Origin: Mycolicibacterium aichiense
GTDB taxonomy: Bacteria > Actinomycetota > Actinomycetes > Mycobacteriales > Mycobacteriaceae
Direction: 5' to 3'
DNA: 64,000 nucleotides
NCBI RefSeq assembly: GCF_010726245.1
Contig: NZ_AP022561.1
Coordinates: 1,860,001-1,924,000 of the forward strand
Each line of letters begins with the position of its first letter. Positions within the stretch are counted from its first letter, which is position 1. Of the stretch, positions 8,336 through 31,108 are shown one piece after another. The notes under the pieces are model-generated. The model was given only the letters and a program-made list of their open reading frames with translations, had not been told where the DNA came from and did not search any database. A program made the position numbers and the translations under genes.

Positions 8336-9564
8336 CCACCAGCGCAGTCGACGCGGCCGGGGTTCAGGAACTGGAGCCGGCGCACGCCGAGATCATCACG
8401 GCGACACTGCCGCTCGTCGGTGCGCACGTCGACGAGATCACGTCGGTGTTCTATCGGCGGATGTTCGGTCGTCACCCGGAACTCCTGCGCAACCTGTTCA
8501 ACCGCGGCAATCAGGCACAGGGATCGCAGCAGCGGGCCCTGGCCGCCTCGATCGCGACTTTCGCTACGCACCTGGTCAATCCGGACCTGCCGCACCCGAG
8601 CGAACTGCTGTCGCGCATCGGCCACAAGCACGCGTCGCTGGGCGTCACCGCCGACCAGTACCCGATCGTGCACGAGCACCTGTTCGCCGCGATCGTCGAG
8701 GTGCTGGGCGCCGACACGGTGACCGCCGACGTCGCCGCGGCCTGGGACCGGGTGTACTGGATCATGGCCGACACCCTGATCGCGCTGGAGCTCGATCTCT
8801 ACGCAGGCGCCGGGGTCGACGCCGGCGATGTCTTCCGCCGGCTGCGGGTCACCGCCCGCGAAGACGACCCCTCCGGCGCCGTGCTGGTGACGGTGGGATC
8901 CGACGGTATGGCCGGAGCTGCTGCGGCGCAATATGTTTCGGTTGGCGTGACACTGCCCGACGGCGCACGTCAGCTGCGGCAGTACAGCTTGGTGAACGCT
9001 CCCGGGGCCTCTGAGTTGACCTTCGCGGTCAAGCCGGTCGACGCTGTCGGGCAGAGCCCGGCGGGCGAAGTGTCGAACTGGATCCGCGACTGTGTCCGGG
9101 TCGGTGACCTGCTCGACGTCACGGTGCCGTTCGGCGATCTGCCCGAGCCGCGCAGTGGTGCACCGGTGGTGCTGATCTCTGCGGGCATCGGCATCACACC
9201 GATGGTGGGAATTCTGGAATACCTTGTCGGGCAGTCGCATGCGGTTCCGGTGCAGGTCCTGCACGCCGACCGAAGCGTGGCGACGCACCCGCTGCGTAAG
9301 CGACACCGTGAACTCGTCGACATCCTGCCCGATGCCAGTCTGGATCTCTGGTACGCCGAGGGCGTCGACGGTGACGACCCCCGGATCCACGATGGGCTGA
9401 TGAACCTCGACGACGTCGAGATCGCCGACGGCGCAGAGATCTACCTCTGCGGGAACGACGGTTTCGTGCAGGCGGTGCGCGCCCAGCTGACCGCCCGCGG
9501 CATCCCCGCGGATCGGGTGCACTGCGAGCTGTTCAGCCCGAACGACTGGCTGCTGGACGCCTGA
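8332..9564 (+). CDS. hmp: Flavohaemoglobin nitric oxide dioxygenase
   Basis: Hmp converts NO plus O2 to nitrate using NAD(P)H. The protein of 410 residues has a globin domain (about 1-145; HKHASLGV contains the proximal His, TSVFYRRMFGRHPEL the CD corner), an FAD-binding beta-barrel (about 155-265; RQYSLVN is the RxYS motif) and an NAD-binding domain (ISAGIGITPMVGIL, LCGNDGFV, and the C-terminal ELFSPNDW). The start ATG overlaps the nsrR stop. The next gene is convergent, with 41 bases between the stops. Confidence 0.96.
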   Translation: MTTSAVDAAGVQELEPAHAEIITATLPLVGAHVDEITSVFYRRMFGRHPELLRNLFNRGNQAQGSQQRALAASIATFATHLVNPDLPHPSELLSRIGHKHASLGVTADQYPIVHEHLFAAIVEVLGADTVTADVAAAWDRVYWIMADTLIALELDLYAGAGVDAGDVFRRLRVTAREDDPSGAVLVTVGSDGMAGAAAAQYVSVGVTLPDGARQLRQYSLVNAPGASELTFAVKPVDAVGQSPAGEVSNWIRDCVRVGDLLDVTVPFGDLPEPRSGAPVVLISAGIGITPMVGILEYLVGQSHAVPVQVLHADRSVATHPLRKRHRELVDILPDASLDLWYAEGVDGDDPRIHDGLMNLDDVEIADGAEIYLCGNDGFVQAVRAQLTARGIPADRVHCELFSPNDWLLDA

Positions 9565-9605
9565 GCCGCTGCGGGCTCGTCGGCGGGCGCCCGGATTGAA
9601 GGGCC

Positions 9606-10421
9606 TTAGGCTGCCGGATTCGGCAGGAACCGGGTCCCGTCGTCGAGACCGTTGAGGGTCTCGATCTCCGTGGCGGTGAGTTCGAAGTCGAACACATCGG
9701 CGTTCTCGGCGATCTGTGCCGGGGCGGAGCGCGGAATGACGATATCGCCCTGCTGCAGGCTCCAGCGGATCAGCACCTGTGCCGGTGACTTCCCGTGCGC
9801 CGCAGCAACTTCGGCGATTGCGGGATTGCCGGCAAGCTTGCTCTCGTCGGTCGGGATGTAGGCCCCGGTGAGGATCGAGCGCTCGCTGTGCACCGCGCGC
9901 AACTCGGCCTGGTTGAGCAGGGGGTGCAGTTCGATCTGATTGACCACGGGCGGGAAATAGCTCAGGTCGATGATGTCCGAGAGGTTCTCCGGGGTGAAGT
10001 TCGCGACACCGATCGACTTGATCAGACCGTCCTGGCGGGACCGCATGATCCCGCCCCAGGCGTCGATGTACTTGCCGTTCTGCTCGGCGGGCCAGTCCAT
10101 CAGGTACAGGTCCACGTACTCCAGGCCCAGGCGTTCGAGGCTGGCCCGGATGGCGTCCTGGGAGGACTGAAAACCCTGGTCCTCGGTTGCGAGCTTGGTG
10201 GCGATGAACAGTTCGGCCCGGGGGAGGCCCGACGCGGCGATGGCGCGCCCGACGGCCGCCTCGTTGCTTTTCGCGGTTTGAATCAGCCGATAACCCGCCT
10301 CCAGGGCGCCGGCCACCGCGCTCTCGGTCTCCTCGGCGGACAGCTCGGCGGCGCCGAGGCCCAGCACGGGGAGGGTGTTGTCGTCGTTGAGCGTGACGGT
10401 GGGGATCGCGGCCGCCGGCAT
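9606..10421 (-). CDS. Aldo/keto reductase-fold protein lacking most of the catalytic tetrad
   Basis: Protein of 271 residues, clearly an aldo/keto reductase homologous to Rv2971 ([46 protein letters not shown]). The active site is broken. Where the family has DTAxxYGNE, this protein has QTAKSNE: the Asp is Gln48, the Tyr is missing, and two residues are deleted. The Lys is kept (ATK, residue 76). The His of LIHWP is Asp109 (LMDWP). The beta-8 SAxxxRI cofactor segment is only partly kept (SAPAQIAEN). The frame is fully open, so this looks like a maintained protein with a changed function, or a recent loss of activity. Start ATG 10421 follows AGGTG; an in-frame start at 10472 lacks one. Confidence 0.9.
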
Positions 10422-22299: not shown

Positions 22300-25200
22300 G
22301 TGTACCTCAAGAGTCTGACCCTGAAGGGCTTCAAGTCCTTCGCCGCGGCGACGACTCTGCGCCTCGAGCCCGGCATCACCTGCGTGGTCGGACCGAACGG
22401 CTCCGGTAAGTCCAATGTCGTCGACGCGCTGGCCTGGGTGATGGGCGAGCAGGGGGCGAAGACGCTGCGCGGCGGCAAGATGGAAGACGTCATTTTCGCC
22501 GGCACCTCCTCGCGGGCCCCGCTGGGCCGCGCCGAGGTGACGCTGACCATCGACAATTCCGACCACGCACTGCCGATCGAGTACTCCGAGGTGTCGATCA
22601 CCCGGCGGATGTTCCGCGACGGCGCCGGGGAGTACGAGATCAACGGCACCAGCTGCCGGTTGATGGACGTCCAGGAGCTGCTCAGCGACTCCGGCATCGG
22701 CCGCGAAATGCACGTCATCGTCGGTCAGGGCCGGCTCTCACAGATCCTCGAGTCGCGCCCAGAAGACCGGCGGGCCTTCATCGAAGAGGCCGCCGGCGTG
22801 CTCAAGCACCGCAAACGCAAGGAAAAGGCGGTCCGCAAGCTCGACTCGATGGCCGCCAACCTGGCCCGGCTCACCGACCTGACCACCGAGCTGCGCCGTC
22901 AGCTCAAGCCGCTGGGCCGCCAGGCCGAGATGGCGCGGCGAGCTCAGACGATTCAGGCGGACCTGCGCGACGCGCGGCTGCGCCTGGCCGCCGACGACCT
23001 GGTCACCCGGCGGGCCGAGTTCGCCGGTGCCGACGACACCGAGACCACGTTGCGCCGCGAGCACGACGAGGCCGCGAAGCGGCTGGACGTCGCCGGCGCG
23101 GCGCTGGCCGCTCACGAGGCCGCGGTGGCCACGCTGTCCGAACGCACCGATGCCGCCCAGCAGGCCTGGTTCCGGCTGTCGGCGCTGGCCGAACGGGTCA
23201 GCGCCACCGTCCGGATCGCTTCTGAGCGAGCGCAATACCTCGAGACCGAGCCCACCGCGAGCACGGGCCCGGACCCCGACGAGCTGGAAGCCGAGGCCGA
23301 CGAGGTCGCCGCACGGGAGCAGGAGCTGCTGGCAGAGCTGGCCGAGGCGCAATCAAGGCTGGAGTTCGCCCGCGCCGAGCTCTCCGAGCGTGAACGCGCG
23401 GCCGCCGAAGCCGAACGTGCCCATATGGCCGCCGTGCGCGCCGAGGCCGACCGCCGCGAAGGGCTCGCCCGGCTGGCCGGGCAGGTTGAGACCGTACGCG
23501 CCCGGGTCGAGTCCATCGACGAGGGCGTCGCCCGGCTGACCACCGCGATCGAAGAGGCGGCCGCCCGCACCCAGCACGCCAGGGCCGAGTTCGAGACCGT
23601 GCAGGGCCGGGTGGGTGAACTGGACCAGGGCGAGGTCGGCCTCGACGAGCAGCACGACCGCACGATCACCGCGCTGCGGCTGGCCGACGAGCGGGTGGCC
23701 GAGTTGCAGGCCGCCGAGCGCAGCGCCGAACGCCAGGTCGCCTCGCTGCGTGCTCGCATCGATGCGTTGGCAGTCGGGATGGAGCGCAAGGACGGCTCGG
23801 CCTGGCTGACGGAAAACCGCGGCGGTGCAGGACTTTTCGGCACGATTGCCAACTTGGTCAAAGTGCGTTCGGGCTACGAGGGGGCGTTGGCGGCGGTGCT
23901 GGGCGCCGCGGCCGACGCGGTGGCCGCCGAGAACTTCGACGCCGCCAGTTCGGCGGTGCGAGCGCTCAAGGACGCCGACGGTGGCCGGGCTGCGATCGTG
24001 CTGGGGGACTGGCCGATCGCGCCGCGCCAATCCGGTTCACTGCCCCAGCGCGCGTTGTGGGCGCTGGATCTGATCGAGGCGCCGGGCCGACTTCAGGGCG
24101 CCATGACGGCGATGCTCGCCGACGTCGCCGTCGTCGAGGATCTTGGTGCCGCGCTGGATCTGGTCGCGGCACAGCCGGCGCTGCGCGCGGTCACCCTCGA
24201 CGGTGACCTGGTTGGCGCGGGGTGGGTCAGCGGTGGCTCCGACCGCAAGCCGAGCACACTGGAGATCGCCGGCGAAATCGACAAGGCCACCCGCGAACTC
24301 GCGGCAGCCGAGACCCAGGTCGCCGAGTTGTCGGCCGCGCTGGCCGGCGCGCTCACCGAGCAGGGTGAGCGCCAGGACGCCGCCGAACAAGCGCTGGCGG
24401 CGCTCAACGAATCCGACGCCGCGATCGCCGCGATCTACGAACAGCTCGGCAGGCTCGGGCAGGAAGCCCGCGCCGCCGAGGGGGAGTGGCGCCGCCAGCA
24501 GGCTCAGCGCGACGAGCTCGAGGCCGGTCGGCTGCGCACGGTGGAGGAGCTCACCGAGCTCGAGAACCGGCTGGCCGCCGCCCAGGACGGGGCGACCGAG
24601 GTCGAAGACGCGCCCGAGGACCGCCAGTACATGCAGTCCGCCGCCGAGGAAGCCCGTGCCGTCGAGGTCGAGGTGCGGCTGGCCGTGCGCACCGCCGAGG
24701 AACGTGCGAATGCCGTTCGTGGACGGGCGGATTCGTTGCGACGAGCCGCCGCGGCCGAGCGGGAGGCGCGCGTTCGCGCTCAGCGCGCACGCGCCGCGCG
24801 CGAGCACGCCGCCGCGGTCGCGGCCGCGGTAGCCGAGGCCGGACGCCGTGTGGCCGGGCACCTGTCCGGTGTGGTGGCGGCGGCGTCCCGGCGCCGTGAT
24901 GCGCTGGCCGCCGAACGGCAGGAACGCGCTACCGCGATGACCGCTGCGCGTGAGGAAGTCACCACGCTGAACAGCCGGATCGCCGCGCTGACCGACTCGC
25001 TGCACCGCGACGAGGTGGCCAAGGCACAGGCGTCGCTGCGCATCGAACAGCTCGAGCAGATGGTGCTGGAGCAGTTCGGTATGTCCGCCGACGATCTGAT
25101 CGCCGAATACGGCCCGGATGTGACGCTGCCGCCGTCCGAGCTGGAGATGGCCGAATACGAACAGGCCAAGGAGCGCGGCGAGCAGGTCATGGCGCCGGCG

Positions 25201-25890
25201 CCGATGCGGTTCGACCGTCCGACTCAGGAACGCCGGGCCAAGCGGGCCGAACGCGAGCTGTCCGAACTGGGCCGAGTGAATCCGCTTGCGCTGGAAGAGT
25301 TTGCCGCGCTCGAGGAGCGCTACAACTTCCTGTCCACGCAGCTCGAAGACGTCAAGGCCGCCCGCAAGGATCTGCTCGACGTGATCGCCGACGTCGATGC
25401 GCGCATCCTGCAGGTGTTCGCCGAGGCGTACGCCGACGTCGAGCGCGAGTTCGAGCAGGTGTTCGCAACGCTGTTCCCCGGCGGTGAAGGCCGGCTGTTG
25501 CTGACCGACCCGAGCGACCTGCTGACCACCGGCGTGGAGGTGGAGGCCCGCCCGCCCGGTAAGAAGGTCAAGCGGCTCTCGCTGCTCTCCGGCGGCGAGA
25601 AGTCGCTGACCGCGGTCGCCATGCTGGTGGCGATCTTCCGGGCCCGGCCGTCGCCGTTCTACGTCATGGACGAGGTCGAGGCCGCCCTCGATGACGTCAA
25701 TCTGCGCAGGCTCATCGGGCTGTTCGAGCAGTTGCGGTCACAGTCACAGCTGATCGTCATCACCCACCAGAAGCCGACCATGGAGATCGCCGACGCCCTG
25801 TACGGCGTGACGATGCAGGGTGACGGCATCACCACGGTGATCTCGCAGCGGATGCGCGGCCAAGAGCTGGTCGCCAGCGCGGCGCCGTAA
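22300..25890 (+). CDS. smc: Chromosome partition protein SMC
   Basis: Condensin ATPase of 1196 residues. N-terminal head with Walker [15 protein letters not shown], a long coiled-coil arm, a hinge at about residues 505-665 ([10 protein letters not shown] ... GGSDRKPS), the return coiled coil, and a C-terminal head with [14 protein letters not shown] (ABC signature) and [13 protein letters not shown] (Walker B). GTG 22300. Full length and intact. The stop is followed by the minus-strand cobalamin protein; in M. tuberculosis ftsY would come next. Confidence 0.97.
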
Positions 25891-25901: not shown

Positions 25902-26903
25902 TCAACTGGATTCGATGGTGAAGTGCTCTCGAACGAGATCGCGTGCCAACGGATAGTCGTCGAGGGTGTCGGCGAGCAGGCCCGCCAGCTCGGCCACCGA
26001 GGCTGGGTCGGCATCGCGGGCCTGCAGCACGTCGCTGATCCACCACGCAGTCTCGGCGATCGGCCGCGGGTCACCAGTGAGCAGCGCCGCCGACAGTGCG
26101 TGCAGGGCCTGATTCAATGTGTCGCGGGTCAGGTTCGCGAACACGGTGTTCTGCGGCTGACGGGTCAACGACCACCGTTCGCGCAGCGACTCGACGATCC
26201 GCCGGTGGTGGAGATCCAGCTGCGCCTGCTCGGCGCTCGCCGCCGGTGAAATCTCCGGTAGCACACCGGAAACCGTCGGCAGCCCCTCCATCGCTGTGAC
26301 CGCGGCGTGTGCGCTGGATGCCCACGCGGTGGCGCCCAGCGCCCGGGCGCGCACGTCGTCGTAGCCGAATGCCGGACCACCGACCAGGGTCGGCACCCCC
26401 GCCGCGGTGGCCGCCTCGATGAAGCGGCGGGTGGTCGGCAAGGCGCCCAACACCGAGCAGCTGATGGCCACCGCGTCGTGTCCGTCGTCCACAAGATGCT
26501 GACTCAGCCGCATCGGAGAGGTCGCCGCGCCCAACACGGTGGTGTCCCAGCCATGCGCACGCAATGCGCAGGCGATAATCATGGCAGGCAGTTCATGGAA
26601 CTCCCGTTCGGCACAGGCGACCAGAACCGACCTATCCCGCACGGGAATTGCACTCACATAGTCTGCGACGGCGGCGGTGGCGGCCACCGAGATCGCGGTC
26701 GCGGCGTGCTCGTCGGCGACGGTCCATTCGGCGCGCTGCCAACGCATACCGACCTCGCGCTGCGATGTGGCTATCACGTCGGTGAGCACCGTCACGGGAT
26801 CCACACCCTCAGTGAGCAATTGGGTGACGACACCGGTCGCCTGTGCTCGGTTCCTGCTCGCCAACGCATGCTGGTAGTCGGCCAGCGGTGTCAGCTCCCG
26901 CAC
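25902..26903 (-). CDS. Stand-alone cobalamin-binding sensor with CarH-type W-x9-EH motif
   Basis: Protein of 333 residues. Residues 1-80 form a helical cap with W55 and E65-H66, exactly the W-x9-EH signature of CarH-type adenosylcobalamin photoreceptors. Residues 90-215 look like the B12-binding Rossmann domain: EREFHELP at 99-106 has the lower-ligand His103 (the usual ExHxxG, with Gly replaced by Pro106), then ISCSVLG and LVGGPAFG. Residues about 215-333 are an extra helical domain I do not recognise. There is no MerR helix-turn-helix, so unlike CarH it should signal by protein contact, not DNA binding. It overlaps the end of the phosphatase gene by 13 bases and is its second cistron. Light sensing is inference; the cobalamin-binding fold is well supported. 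Confidence 0.85.
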   Translation of the reverse strand: MRELTPLADYQHALASRNRAQATGVVTQLLTEGVDPVTVLTDVIATSQREVGMRWQRAEWTVADEHAATAISVAATAAVADYVSAIPVRDRSVLVACAEREFHELPAMIIACALRAHGWDTTVLGAATSPMRLSQHLVDDGHDAVAISCSVLGALPTTRRFIEAATAAGVPTLVGGPAFGYDDVRARALGATAWASSAHAAVTAMEGLPTVSGVLPEISPAASAEQAQLDLHHRRIVESLRERWSLTRQPQNTVFANLTRDTLNQALHALSAALLTGDPRPIAETAWWISDVLQARDADPASVAELAGLLADTLDDYPLARDLVREHFTIESS

Positions 26904-28141
26904 GTGACCGCCAGCAGTGCCATGTCGTCGTGCGGATCACCGTCCAAATACTCCAGGACATCACGTTCGACCGCTTCGCAGATCGCCTCCCCGCCGGCTC
27001 CGGCGTAGGAAGGCAGCAGTTCGAGCAGCCGGCGCACTCCATAGAGACGGTCGTCGCGGCGGGCCTCCTCGACGCCATCGGTGAACATCAGCATGGTGTC
27101 GCCGCGCTCCAATCGCACTGCGGCAGGCCGATAGTGCACCCCGAGCTTCACCCCGGCGGCGATCCCGGACACCTCGATCTGTTCGACATCGCCGGAGGCT
27201 CGAATCACGATCGGGCCGGGGTGTCCGGCCGTGGCGACGTGCGCTTCGGCCCATTGGCCGTCCGGCCTGCCGCGCACCCGCGCGCACAGCGTGGTGACGA
27301 AGCGCCCCACCGCCTGGTCGCACAACACCGTGTTCAGCGTGTCGAGAACCCGATCGGGGCTGCGGTCGAAATGCGCCGCGGTACGGATGGTTTGGCGGGC
27401 CTGCAGGGTGAGCGCGGCGGAATCGACTCCTTTGCCACACACGTCGCCCAGGGTGAGCACCACGTCATCGCTGCTACCGACGACATCATAGAAATCGCCG
27501 CCGACCTCAAGATGCTCGACTGCGGGCCGATACCGCGCTGCGACCGAAAACCCGATGGCCGCAGGGAGTTTCGGTGGCCGGAGGCTGCGCTGCAGTGCCG
27601 CGGCCAGTTGTCCGCGCTCCTCGTAGAGCCGCGCCGAATCCAGTGCGACAGCCGCCGTCGCGCCGACCCGCTCGGCCTCGGCGATGGTGTCCGCGTCGAA
27701 CAGCCGCCCCGCCGTGCGGACCAGAACGAATGCGCCCAGCGTCGTGCCCCGGGCGGTGAGTGCCAGGGTCAGCACATCCGCCGGACGCAAGGCGGCGAGT
27801 TCCTCGGCGAGGGCGCGGTGCCGCAGGCGGGTGCCGATATCGGCAAGGGACATGTCGTGACCGACGTGGCCATGGAGTCGCTGGCCGGTACGCAGCACCT
27901 GATCCAGCCCGCGCTCGGACGGCGACGACCGCGCGATGACGTCGGAGAACCCGACGTTGGCGCCGCCGTAGACGGTCAGCCCACCGGTCCGGTGATCCGG
28001 CATGGCCAGTACCGCCCAGTCCGCCAGCCCAGGCTGGACAGCGCTGAGCAGATTCAAGACGGTCCGCCGCAAATTCAGCGATCCGTTCATCGCGATCTCG
28101 ACCTCGCGGTGCGCGACATCGGGCGCGAACTGGTTTGCCAT
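26891..28141 (-). CDS. GAF domain PP2C (RsbU/SpoIIE-type) serine phosphatase
   Basis: Protein of 416 residues from ATG 28141 (GTGGAG just upstream); an in-frame start at 28234 adds 31 residues of low similarity. Residues about 20-170 resemble a GAF sensor; a short linker (LYEERGQLAAALQRSLRPP) leads to a PP2C domain with EVGGDFYDVV, LGDVCGKGVDSA, ATAGHPGP, FTDGVEEAR and GDPHDDMALL, so the metal-binding Asp residues are present. Such phosphatases dephosphorylate STAS anti-anti-sigma factors to release sigma factors. Its neighbours are a cobalamin sensor (overlapping, same operon) and a divergent STAS protein, which supports that role. No RsbW-type kinase is encoded nearby. Confidence 0.92.
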   Translation of the reverse strand: MANQFAPDVAHREVEIAMNGSLNLRRTVLNLLSAVQPGLADWAVLAMPDHRTGGLTVYGGANVGFSDVIARSSPSERGLDQVLRTGQRLHGHVGHDMSLADIGTRLRHRALAEELAALRPADVLTLALTARGTTLGAFVLVRTAGRLFDADTIAEAERVGATAAVALDSARLYEERGQLAAALQRSLRPPKLPAAIGFSVAARYRPAVEHLEVGGDFYDVVGSSDDVVLTLGDVCGKGVDSAALTLQARQTIRTAAHFDRSPDRVLDTLNTVLCDQAVGRFVTTLCARVRGRPDGQWAEAHVATAGHPGPIVIRASGDVEQIEVSGIAAGVKLGVHYRPAAVRLERGDTMLMFTDGVEEARRDDRLYGVRRLLELLPSYAGAGGEAICEAVERDVLEYLDGDPHDDMALLAVTCGS

Positions 28142-28173
28142 TGTCTCCACGCTAGCGGGAATCGTCACCGCAA

Positions 28174-28187
28174 GGCCAGGCCTGGCC
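28174..28187. promoter_or_regulatory. 14-base perfect palindrome in the phosphatase/STAS divergent promoter
   Basis: GGCCAGGCCTGGCC is a perfect palindrome between the phosphatase start (28141) and the STAS start (28288). It sits just upstream of a candidate STAS promoter (TTAGAG 28189-28194, 18-base spacer, TAGTCT 28213-28218), so it could be an operator for both directions. Unproven. Confidence 0.35.
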
Positions 28188-28287
28188 GTTAGAGCAAGCC
28201 AACGGCGTGAGCTAGTCTGTTCGCCGAGGTTCAAGCAGCAGCCTTCCGATAGTTGTCGCCCGCCGGCCGGGCACCGATCATCGAAGG

Positions 28288-28644
28288 GTGGCTTTGGACG
28301 CTTACGATTCCCGCCAGTATTGGCTGGGAAGAACCGCCGTCGTCAGTGCTTCCGGGGCACTCGATCTACTGACGTCGCCGCGTCTGGAGAAACTCGTCAC
28401 CAGCACCCTCGAGCAACGCCCGGACGCCCTGATCATCGACCTGACCGATGTGAGTTTCCTCGGTTCGGCCGGCATGCAAGTGCTTGTCGACGCGTACGAG
28501 GCGACGTCCCCGAACATCGGATTCGCGGTGGTCGCCGACGGGCCCGGCACCAGCAGGCCGCTGAAGCTGATCGGATTGACCGAGGTGTTCGACGTCGTTG
28601 CGTCCCTGCAGACCGCGGTCGACCGGCTCAGCCGAGGTGCGTGA
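28288..28644 (+). CDS. STAS domain anti-anti-sigma factor
   Basis: Protein of 118 residues with a single STAS fold: [18 protein letters not shown], then [23 protein letters not shown]. Ser60 in GSAG is at the usual phospho-acceptor position. Such proteins bind an RsbW-type anti-sigma kinase when unphosphorylated and so free a sigma factor. It is divergent from the phosphatase, its presumed activator. GTG 28288 has a weak ribosome site; TTG 28294 with GAAGG six bases upstream is an alternative. The end overlaps the convergent idi2 gene by 17 bases. Confidence 0.9.
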
Positions 28645-29692
28645 GGTCCACACGTTTCAACGCGGCCACGTCATCGGCGCCGCAGCCGTGCAGGCAGACA
28701 CGCAGCTCTTCGACGAAGCCATGCAACGCTTCCAGCGCGGCGGCCGGTGACTCGATGGCCGGGGCCAGCAGCGGTCGGGCCAAAGCGACCACATCGGCAC
28801 CCAACGCCAGTGCCTTTGCGGCATCGACCCCGGTGCGGATGCCGCCGGAGGCCATCAGGGGCATGCCCGGCAGGGTGGCCCGAACTTCGGTGAGGGCCTG
28901 CGCGGTCGGGACCCCCCACTCGGCGACCGCCGGGTAGCGCACCTCGCCGTAGCGCACCAGCTGTTCGACCCGGGCCCACGACGTCCCACCGGCTCCGGCG
29001 ACGTCGACCGCCGCGATCGGCAGGTCCCGCAGCCGCTCGGCAGCAGCAGCCCCGATCCCGTGGCCGACCTCCTTGACCAGGATCGGGTAGGGCAGCGCTT
29101 CGGCCAGCGTGCGCAATCGCTCCAGCGAGCCGCTGAAGTCGGTGTCGCCGTTGGCCTGCATCGCCTCCTGGAGGGGATTGGTGTGAACGGCAAGTGCGTT
29201 GGCGCCGATCCGGTCCAGCGCCGCCGCGATCTTGGGCACCGCGGCATCGGAGAGCTGAGCCAGCCCGATGTTGCCGACCAACAGGACATCGGGGGCGAGG
29301 TCGCGCACGTCGAAGGATGCCGCCACAGTGCCGTCGGGGTCGTCGAGCATGATGCGCTGCGAACCCAGCATCATGCCGATCCCGAGCTTCTGCGCGGCCT
29401 CGGCGAGATTGCGATTGATCGTGCGGGACAGCTCGGCCCCGCCGGTCATCGCCCCGACCAGAACCGGCGCGCGCAGCTGCGCGCCGAGGAAGCTGGTCCC
29501 GAGGTCGACCGTGCCGAGGTTGGTCTGGGTCAGGGCGTTGTACGCAAGTCGGTAGCGCTCGAAGCCGGTCGTCACGGTCTCGTATTGCACCGGCCCGTGA
29601 AGGCAGGCGTCGATGTGGCGCAGCTTGCGGCTCGCCATACCGATTCCCAGGTCGCTTCGCTCCTGCCCGATTCCCGCGTCGTCCGTCGTCAC
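28628..29692 (-). CDS. fni: Type 2 isopentenyl-diphosphate delta-isomerase (FMN-dependent)
   Basis: FMN/NAD(P)H-dependent isomerase interconverting IPP and DMAPP, the primer for carotenoids, menaquinone and polyprenols. Motifs: [34 protein letters not shown] (substrate site), [17 protein letters not shown] and ASGGIRTG (FMN phosphate site). GTG 29692 gives 354 residues; ATG 29638 gives 336 and starts closer to the conserved region. The extra N-terminus (QERSDLGI) is encoded by the 20-base repeat also found in ung. The gene is convergent with the STAS gene, which suggests, but does not prove, that it belongs to the same accessory block. Confidence 0.93.
29650..29669 (-). repeat. 20-base dispersed repeat at the start of the isomerase gene
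   Basis: The reverse complement is CGGGCAGGAGCGAAGCGACC, identical to 2464-2483 in ung. Read with the GTG 29692 start it encodes QERSD in the same frame as in ung. It lies between the two candidate start codons. Confidence 0.8.
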
Positions 29693-29752: not shown

Positions 29753-31108
29753 GTGTCAGAGGGTCTCTGGATCGCTATCGCGGTCATCGCCGTCCTGGTC
29801 GTTGCTGCACTCATCATCGGTCTGGTCCGCTATCGGCGGCGCCAAATCAGTCTGCGCCGCAGCTCAGAGAGTCCCACACCAATTGACCGATCCGGCGGCT
29901 ACAGCGCGTCGAGCGGCATTTCGTTCACACAATCGTCAGTAACGACCGCGCCGCCCCCAGCGCCTGCGGCGCCGCCCACGATCGACACCACGGGCCTGCC
30001 CGGGGTCGGCGACGATGCCGCACTGCCGCGCGACTCCGTCAAGCGCCCCATCGAAGATGTGCGGCTGCCCGAACCGCCGGTGGCCGAACCGCCCGCTGCC
30101 GCCGAGACCGTCGTCGACGAGCCTGCTGTCGAGCCGACCCCCGCGCCCGCCGAGGTCACGCCGACCGCGCCCGACCTCAGCGGGATCGCGCCGACCGAAG
30201 GCCGCCTCGAGCGCCTCCGCGGCCGGCTCGCCAAGTCGCAGAACGCCCTGGGCCGCAGCATGCTCGGTCTGCTCGGCGGCGGCGACCTCGACGAGGAGTC
30301 CTGGGAAGAGGTCGAGGACACCCTGCTGATCGCCGACCTGGGCCCGGTGGTGACCAGCTCGGTGATCGAGCAGCTGCGCAGCAGGCTGGCCGCAGCCACT
30401 GTGCGCACCGAGGCCGACGCCCGCGCGGTCCTGCGGGACGTGCTGATCTCCGAACTCGACCCGGGGCTCGACCGCTCCATCAAGGCGCTGCCGCACGCCG
30501 ACAAGCCGTCGGTTCTGTTGGTCGTCGGCGTGAACGGAACGGGCAAGACGACGACGGTGGGCAAGCTGGCCCGCGTGCTGGTCGCCGACGGGCGCCGGGT
30601 GGTCCTCGGCGCGGCCGATACGTTCCGCGCGGCCGCCGCCGACCAGTTGCAGAGCTGGGCGTCGCGGGTCGGGGCCGACGTCGTCCGCGGCCCCGAGGGC
30701 GCCGACCCGGCGTCGGTGGCATTCGACGCGGTGGACAAAGGAATCGAGGCCGGCGCCGACGTCGTCGTCATCGACACCGCCGGGCGCCTGCACACCAAGA
30801 CCGGCCTGATGGACGAGCTCGGCAAGGTCAAGCGAGTGGTGAGCAAACGTGCGGCGGTCGACGAGGTCTTGCTGGTGCTCGACGCGACGATCGGCCAGAA
30901 CGGTCTGGCGCAGGCCCGGGTCTTCGCCGAGGTCGTCGACATCACTGGACTGGTGCTCACCAAACTCGACGGGACTGCCAAGGGCGGCATCGTATTTAGG
31001 GTTCAGCAGGAGCTCGGGGTGCCGGTTAAGCTCGTCGGATTGGGCGAAGGCCCCGACGATCTCGCACCGTTCGAGCCGGCCGCATTCGTCGACGCGCTGC
31101 TCGGCTAG
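29753..31108 (+). CDS. ftsY: Signal recognition particle receptor FtsY
   Basis: SRP GTPase of 451 residues at the membrane. One N-terminal transmembrane helix (about residues 4-24), a Pro/Ala/Glu-rich acidic linker to about residue 145, then the N domain ([17 protein letters not shown]) and G domain: [17 protein letters not shown] (P-loop), [28 protein letters not shown], and [14 protein letters not shown] at the C-terminus. GTG 29753. It pairs with Ffh, encoded about 4.5 kb downstream. Confidence 0.96.

Follow-up and report, generated by a model that had tools for sequence, protein, structure and literature searches.

The window, i.e. the whole stretch of 64,000 nucleotides analysed here, belongs to the one-contig genome (5.93 Mb) of an environmental mycobacterium and carries a three-gene block flanked by smc (22300-25890) and ftsY (29753-31108). 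On the reverse strand, the gene of a cobalamin-binding (B12) protein of 333 residues (25902..26903) overlaps by 13 bases (26891-26903) an open reading frame of 447 residues encoding a GAF-like and PP2C (SpoIIE/RsbU-type) phosphatase (26891..28234). The gene of an RsfB-like STAS anti-anti-sigma protein (28288..28644, forward strand) is divergent from the phosphatase gene. These coordinates bear out the gene layout given in the earlier note, and the residues it had singled out, W55, E65-H66 and H103 of the B12 protein and Ser60 of the STAS protein, are all found at those positions. The phosphatase more likely starts at the ATG at 28141, since the open reading frames in three relatives comprise only 420 residues; with this start, an intergenic region of 146 bp (28142..28287) separates the divergent phosphatase and STAS genes. 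Within the divergent region of close relatives, the GTTCAAGCAGCAGCC block at 28229-28243 is kept with small changes and is a possible candidate regulatory site. No Rfam element, cobalamin riboswitches included, was detected in the whole window at gathering thresholds.

The earlier note had also placed the block between smc and ftsY and called it accessory. Both hold: a further gene (28628..29692, reverse strand, convergent with the STAS gene) lies in between as well, and the window's group of B12 proteins occurs in 38 of 248 genomes of the genus. This neighbour matches PF01070 (Pfam name FMN_dh), and we take it to be an FMN-dependent type-2 isopentenyl-diphosphate (IPP) isomerase-like gene. 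The smc/ftsY site is shared by 9 of 81 other loci tested, eight of which also carry the isomerase-like gene; that it might help to supply carotenoids is no more than an idea.

Identity of the cobalamin-binding protein

The B12-binding part, a four-helix bundle plus Rossmann domain (about residues 9-206; 26286..26879, reverse strand), matches PF02607 at residues 9-75 and PF02310 at residues 92-195. It provides the W-x9-EH motif, the E/DxH motif and the lower-ligand histidine (W55, E65, H66, E101 and H103). As proposed earlier, this is a CarH-like adenosylcobalamin (AdoCbl) site lacking a DNA-binding domain: Pfam gave no match to a MerR-type domain in the protein, and the CarH NCBIfam model scored 44.7 bits at a cut-off of 400. 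The C-terminal domain (about residues 218-329; 25917..26252, reverse strand), previously described as unrecognised and helical, turns out to be a photoglobin domain according to sequence, alignment and structure model, i.e. a globin-like adjacent domain of the bilin-binding type with the same overall fold as in photocobilins. Structure prediction, which the earlier note had suggested, gave a model that matches the photocobilins SasPcob and AbPcob over nearly the full length, in agreement with the sequence search; CarH structures align only within residues 2-213, about the first two-thirds. Sequence and modelled fold place the B12 protein among the stand-alone photocobilins, and as one of these it would bind AdoCbl and respond to light.

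Photocobilin structures are available for SasPcob (8j2w/8j2x) and AbDPcob (8j2y) (Zhang et al. 2024, PMC10979010, consulted in part). The window protein shares with them the full-length architecture, the AdoCbl residues and, as W288, the equivalent of SasPcob Trp296, which contacts both the corrin and ring D of biliverdin (BV). It differs from SasPcob in carrying Thr262, Arg132 and Arg100 in place of Asp270, His137 and the glycine of the GxxH motif, respectively. Traits expected of the family are binding of AdoCbl and BV, a dimeric dark and a monomeric light state, and a response to red light. With CarH/LitR the window protein has in common W-x9-EH, the lower-ligand histidine and, for roughly the first 210 residues, the B12 fold, but the photoglobin domain takes the place of the MerR domain, and its output is presumably a protein contact. 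Contact of this kind has a precedent, as a free photocobilin alters the activity of a separate enzyme, apparently via protein contact (PMC10979010, in the parts consulted). In the same text, the discoverers call the function of stand-alone photocobilins "less clear" and already name a potential STAS/SpoIIE/PP2C interaction for SasPcob. The earlier statement that no system with this layout had been described can thus not be upheld.

Distribution and pairing with the phosphatase

In a search of 248 Mycobacterium genomes (E 1e-20), photocobilin matches were found in 78 and were split by identity into groups A (38 genomes) and B (50), with both groups present in ten, the window genome among them. 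The window protein belongs to group A; closest to it among seven named loci is the B12 protein of Mycolicibacterium rhodesiae (95%). Of the 83 loci of the genus that were examined, 45 belong to group B and 38 to group A, the latter being 37 loci from the searched genomes and the named L008. They comprise 82 of the 89 places found in the genus, leaving out five of group B (G036, G068, G192, G098, G010) and two G008 fragments, together with L008. A phosphatase was counted as directly upstream when its stop codon lay at most 150 nt (genus) or 350 nt (class) from the first matched photocobilin residue. By this measure, every one of the 83 loci of the genus has a PP2C gene directly upstream and in the same orientation, a constancy which argues that the pairing is not due to chance. 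STAS genes are arranged less uniformly. They follow immediately downstream in all 45 group B loci and are divergent upstream, as in the window, in half of the 38 group A loci, with none seen at that place in the other 19. Beyond the STAS gene, an RsbW-type kinase is encoded in six of the 38 group A loci, and none was seen there in 32; at least one of the group A loci, L094, is cut by its contig end. Within the genus, the search for the same neighbourhood that had been suggested recovers the phosphatase pair throughout and the full divergent arrangement in half of group A.

At E 1e-30, 67 of the 394 genomes searched across the class gave matches; they represent 26 of the 137 genera covered, own genus included. 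Outside the genus, 57 full photocobilin sequences were considered, leaving out the partial L253, the short B12-only matches in G345, G422 and G472, and the split locus L254 of the own genus, which yielded no sequence. A PP2C gene is directly upstream of 44 of them, two others are the second member of a tandem pair that follows a single PP2C, and no PP2C was found beside the remaining 11, among them L243, which begins at a contig end. STAS genes lie within 4 kb in 32 of the 44 phosphatase-linked loci, 23 of these immediately downstream.

The window genome itself holds five B12-domain matches. Two are photocobilins and abut a PP2C gene; the other three do not. The second photocobilin module, L074 (C1:5498493), is a compact PP2C-photocobilin-STAS operon with overlaps of four bases, in which the photocobilin and STAS genes occupy 8428-9848 (G000 C1:5498427-5499847). 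Its photocobilin retains the biliverdin pair, and its STAS protein is a different one of DSAG type.

Six group A loci (L090, L095, L101, L102, L103 and L105) show a further arrangement, in which a protein of about 880-1390 residues matching both PP2C and RsbW models is encoded directly downstream of the photocobilin; in five of the six, it is on the same strand and a STAS gene comes after it.

In our overall reading, to which we assign a probability of roughly 0.6, the stand-alone photocobilin serves the co-encoded PP2C as a regulatory subunit that senses light, and feeds a STAS/SigF-class switch. Strict co-occurrence with the phosphatase would also fit a photocobilin that has ceased to be a sensor and, as a structural adaptor, stabilises PP2C or determines its location, and the biliverdin-contacting pair is indeed missing throughout group A; the AdoCbl-site residues, however, do not vary in any of the 38 group A proteins, and we regard such a scaffold role as very improbable.

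Ligand sites and bilin supply

The 83 sequences of the genus were aligned with SasPcob and AbPcob; residues are given in SasPcob numbering, i.e. printed chain index plus 6. Trp61, Glu71, His72, Glu106, His108 and Trp296 are invariant in 83 of 83 sequences of both groups, the Trp296 equivalent being kept in all 38 proteins of group A and all 45 of group B. In contrast, at position 270, where Asp makes the key contact to biliverdin, all 45 group B sequences have Asp, but those of group A have Val (13), Ala (13), Thr (11) or Ile (1); at position 137, where His meets a BV propionate, all 45 of group B have His and all 38 of group A have Arg. Neither residue of the pair thus occurs in any of the 38 aligned group A sequences. 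The GxxH glycine, part of the light signature, is likewise kept in group B (45/45) and replaced in group A by Arg (37/38) or Lys (1/38).

As AbPcob, with His and Ala at the two positions, is still classed as a photocobilin, the missing pair marks a subtype and does not exclude group A from the family. In a tree, group A is joined by two sequences that lack Asp270 as well, L199 (from a different family within the order; support 0.988) and L216 (from a different family within the class; 1.0). A wider clade (0.977) unites group A with nine sequences from outside the genus, none of which has Asp270, and group B and SasPcob fall outside it; the absence is therefore a property of the whole clade, although the tree, being midpoint-rooted, speaks to the grouping of these sequences and not to whether Asp270 was lost or gained. 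AbPcob, which carries His at the Asp270 place, binds BV weakly (PMC10979010, in part). On this ground, and because Asp270 and His137 are absent, group A is taken to be an AdoCbl-only sensor, which appears to have no bilin site and would probably signal green light only and be blind to red. An altered ligand site is also conceivable, as group A has invariant photoglobin residues of its own (Trp244, His268 and Arg280).

The exchange of the GxxH glycine may mean that group A proteins bind AdoCbl differently or have a different photochemistry. It also favours a rival reading, in which the module would report cobalamin level or AdoCbl redox state, with occupancy of the B12 site setting PP2C activity instead of photolysis. 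Binding of AdoCbl lowers the activity of a diguanylate cyclase (DGC) relative to the apo form, so that occupancy alone can signal (PMC10979010, in the parts consulted). Yet the adenosyl-holding Trp and the Glu-His pair, which the consulted text of PMC11796333 counts as part of the light-responsive signature, are unchanged across the 83 sequences, and we consider an occupancy sensor unlikely.

Two variants were seen outside the genus. In L221 and L222, where tandem photocobilin genes lie behind one PP2C, the second copies have Arg at the GxxH glycine and keep His137 and Asp270. In L239, Arg has replaced three residues of the phosphatase-linked photocobilin-like protein (gene start 4135), namely the Trp of the AdoCbl site, the His that serves as lower ligand, and Trp296; this protein is a possible ligand-free descendant.

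For a bilin-binding copy, the supply of chromophore has to be considered. No heme oxygenase (PF01126) match was found in the window genome, which encodes a MhuD-like protein (E 2.3e-55 to 3hx9; a molecule name in this search reads "mycobilin-producing"). MhuD yields mycobilin, not biliverdin, and to our knowledge mycobilin is the chromophore of no known photoreceptor. The L074 (group B) copy would therefore need mycobilin or an imported bilin. As MhuD is present in 246 of 248 genus genomes, it has no discriminating value. Heme oxygenase is rarer in genomes with group A (5/38 vs 82/210; Fisher p 0.0016, uncorrected for relatedness) and shows no association with group B (16/50 vs 71/198; p 0.74, likewise uncorrected, and with G068 and G192 matched only via the B12 part). 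As group B keeps the BV pair and shows no such association, the counts speak against coupling the bilin site simply to the supply of biliverdin; the heme oxygenase distribution is suggestive only.

A possible light input into partner switching

The phosphatase matches SpoIIE PF07228 (E 3e-41) and the Rv1364c structure 3ke6 (E 1e-16), and the catalytic and metal-binding motifs GGDFYD, GDVCGKG, FTDG and HDD can be read by eye. Of the earlier assignment as a GAF/PP2C phosphatase, the PP2C half is well borne out; the GAF match (PF13185) reached 25.2 bits and stayed under the cut-off of 28.6. The STAS protein (PF01740, E 2e-13; TIGR00377) matches RsfB 8ih8 (E 1e-16) and 4qtp (E 1e-20) and carries by eye a phosphoserine motif (GSAG) with Ser60 as candidate. 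A phosphatase with metal-binding motifs and a STAS protein with a phosphoserine motif, both parts of partner switching, are hence present. No RsbW-type kinase (HATPase) match was found near the module in the window genome. Elsewhere in this genome, the PP2C-STAS-RsbW cluster L078 encodes a candidate RsbW2-like kinase with N, G1 and G2 boxes that look intact by eye; its STAS protein is the closest paralogue of the window STAS in the genome (54%), and the kinases beside six group A modules are 48-53% identical to its RsbW.

Light is likewise led into a partner-switching sigma pathway by the stress switches of Bacillus and Listeria. Their sensors, YtvA and the blue-light receptor RsbL, respectively, are of flavin type and reside on the stressosome, in contrast to an AdoCbl protein paired with a phosphatase here. 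A further known system is the SigF switch of M. smegmatis, in which RsbW2 phosphorylates RsfB on Ser63, RsbW1 is the anti-SigF factor, and the PP2C RsfR under the sensor kinase RsfS dephosphorylates RsfB and thus controls SigF (PMC7693655, PMC10950880, both consulted in part). As far as these texts go, PP2C, RsfB-like phosphoserine STAS and a candidate RsbW2-like kinase are common to both, but a photocobilin stands in the place of the histidine kinase RsfS, and the window PP2C is without a receiver domain. By analogy, the most fitting reading of the window module is that of an RsfSR counterpart gated by light.

On our reading, the photocobilin would bind adenosylcobalamin in the dark (through Trp55, Glu65-His66 and the lower ligand His103) and dimerise. 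Green light would break the Co-C bond and change the dimer interface, and the altered photocobilin would change PP2C activity by protein contact; the sign of this effect and the identity of the kinase are points that we infer. An RsbW2-type kinase would phosphorylate STAS Ser60 and the PP2C would remove the phosphate, whereupon unphosphorylated STAS would sequester an anti-sigma factor and a SigF-class sigma factor would be freed.

A SigF-type output, with SigF as the presumed target, is reasonable because the STAS protein is RsfB-like. Searched with an RsfB fragment, the window genome gave the window STAS (39%) and the paralogue L258 (41%) as its two closest proteins, followed by two matches at 38% over 56 residues and at 24%. 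The module might also be light-gated and act through its STAS protein on a second SigB/F/G-type factor or a non-sigma partner, which we consider somewhat unlikely in the face of this RsfB likeness. Such an output would suit a genome with 11 STAS and seven SpoIIE matches and with two SigB/F/G-class sigma factors over cut-off, the second of which (C1:4927851; 272.8 bits, cut-off 234.35) adjoins another PP2C. It would also suit the promoter scan, a consensus pattern search with no shuffle control, in which neither the divergent region nor the sequence upstream of the modules gave a SigF-type promoter. The same pattern, again with no shuffle control, finds a site upstream of the genome's rsbW1-sigF pair (five hits in 188 kb). 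Of the SigF partner switching proposed in the earlier note, the PP2C/STAS setting and the RsfB-like STAS protein stand, while the missing promoter, the missing nearby kinase and the two candidate sigma factors leave its SigF part weaker.

A broader and rather speculative extension of the light-sensing reading is that some Actinobacteria possess two tuned photocobilin-PP2C-STAS switches, a green-only one of the bilin-blind clade and a bilin-binding paralogue, possibly with opposite sign on one sigma network and with mycobilin or an imported bilin as chromophore. The window photocobilin is probably red-blind, and L074 keeps the Asp270/His137 pair. Opposite signs are conceivable, as the effect of SasPcob on a partner enzyme is inverted when biliverdin is absent (PMC10979010, in part). 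If this were true, either switch could help control light-induced pigmentation in mycobacteria, for which a literature search found no photoreceptor named in the text portions consulted. The SigF pathway covers carotenoid genes in M. smegmatis (PMC7693655, in part); in the window genome, no SigF-like site was found in either phytoene synthase region scanned.

The sensor is of a known kind, and what is new is a subtype lacking the bilin pair in a conserved phosphatase module, not a new kind of system. Its near-constant pairing with PP2C, often together with an RsfB-like STAS protein, offers a concrete output for stand-alone photocobilins. Two paralogous modules in one genome separate the contributions of the B12 site from those of the bilin site and allow the entry of light into the SigF pathway to be tested. 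What makes the locus interesting is that it gives stand-alone photocobilins a role that can be tested.
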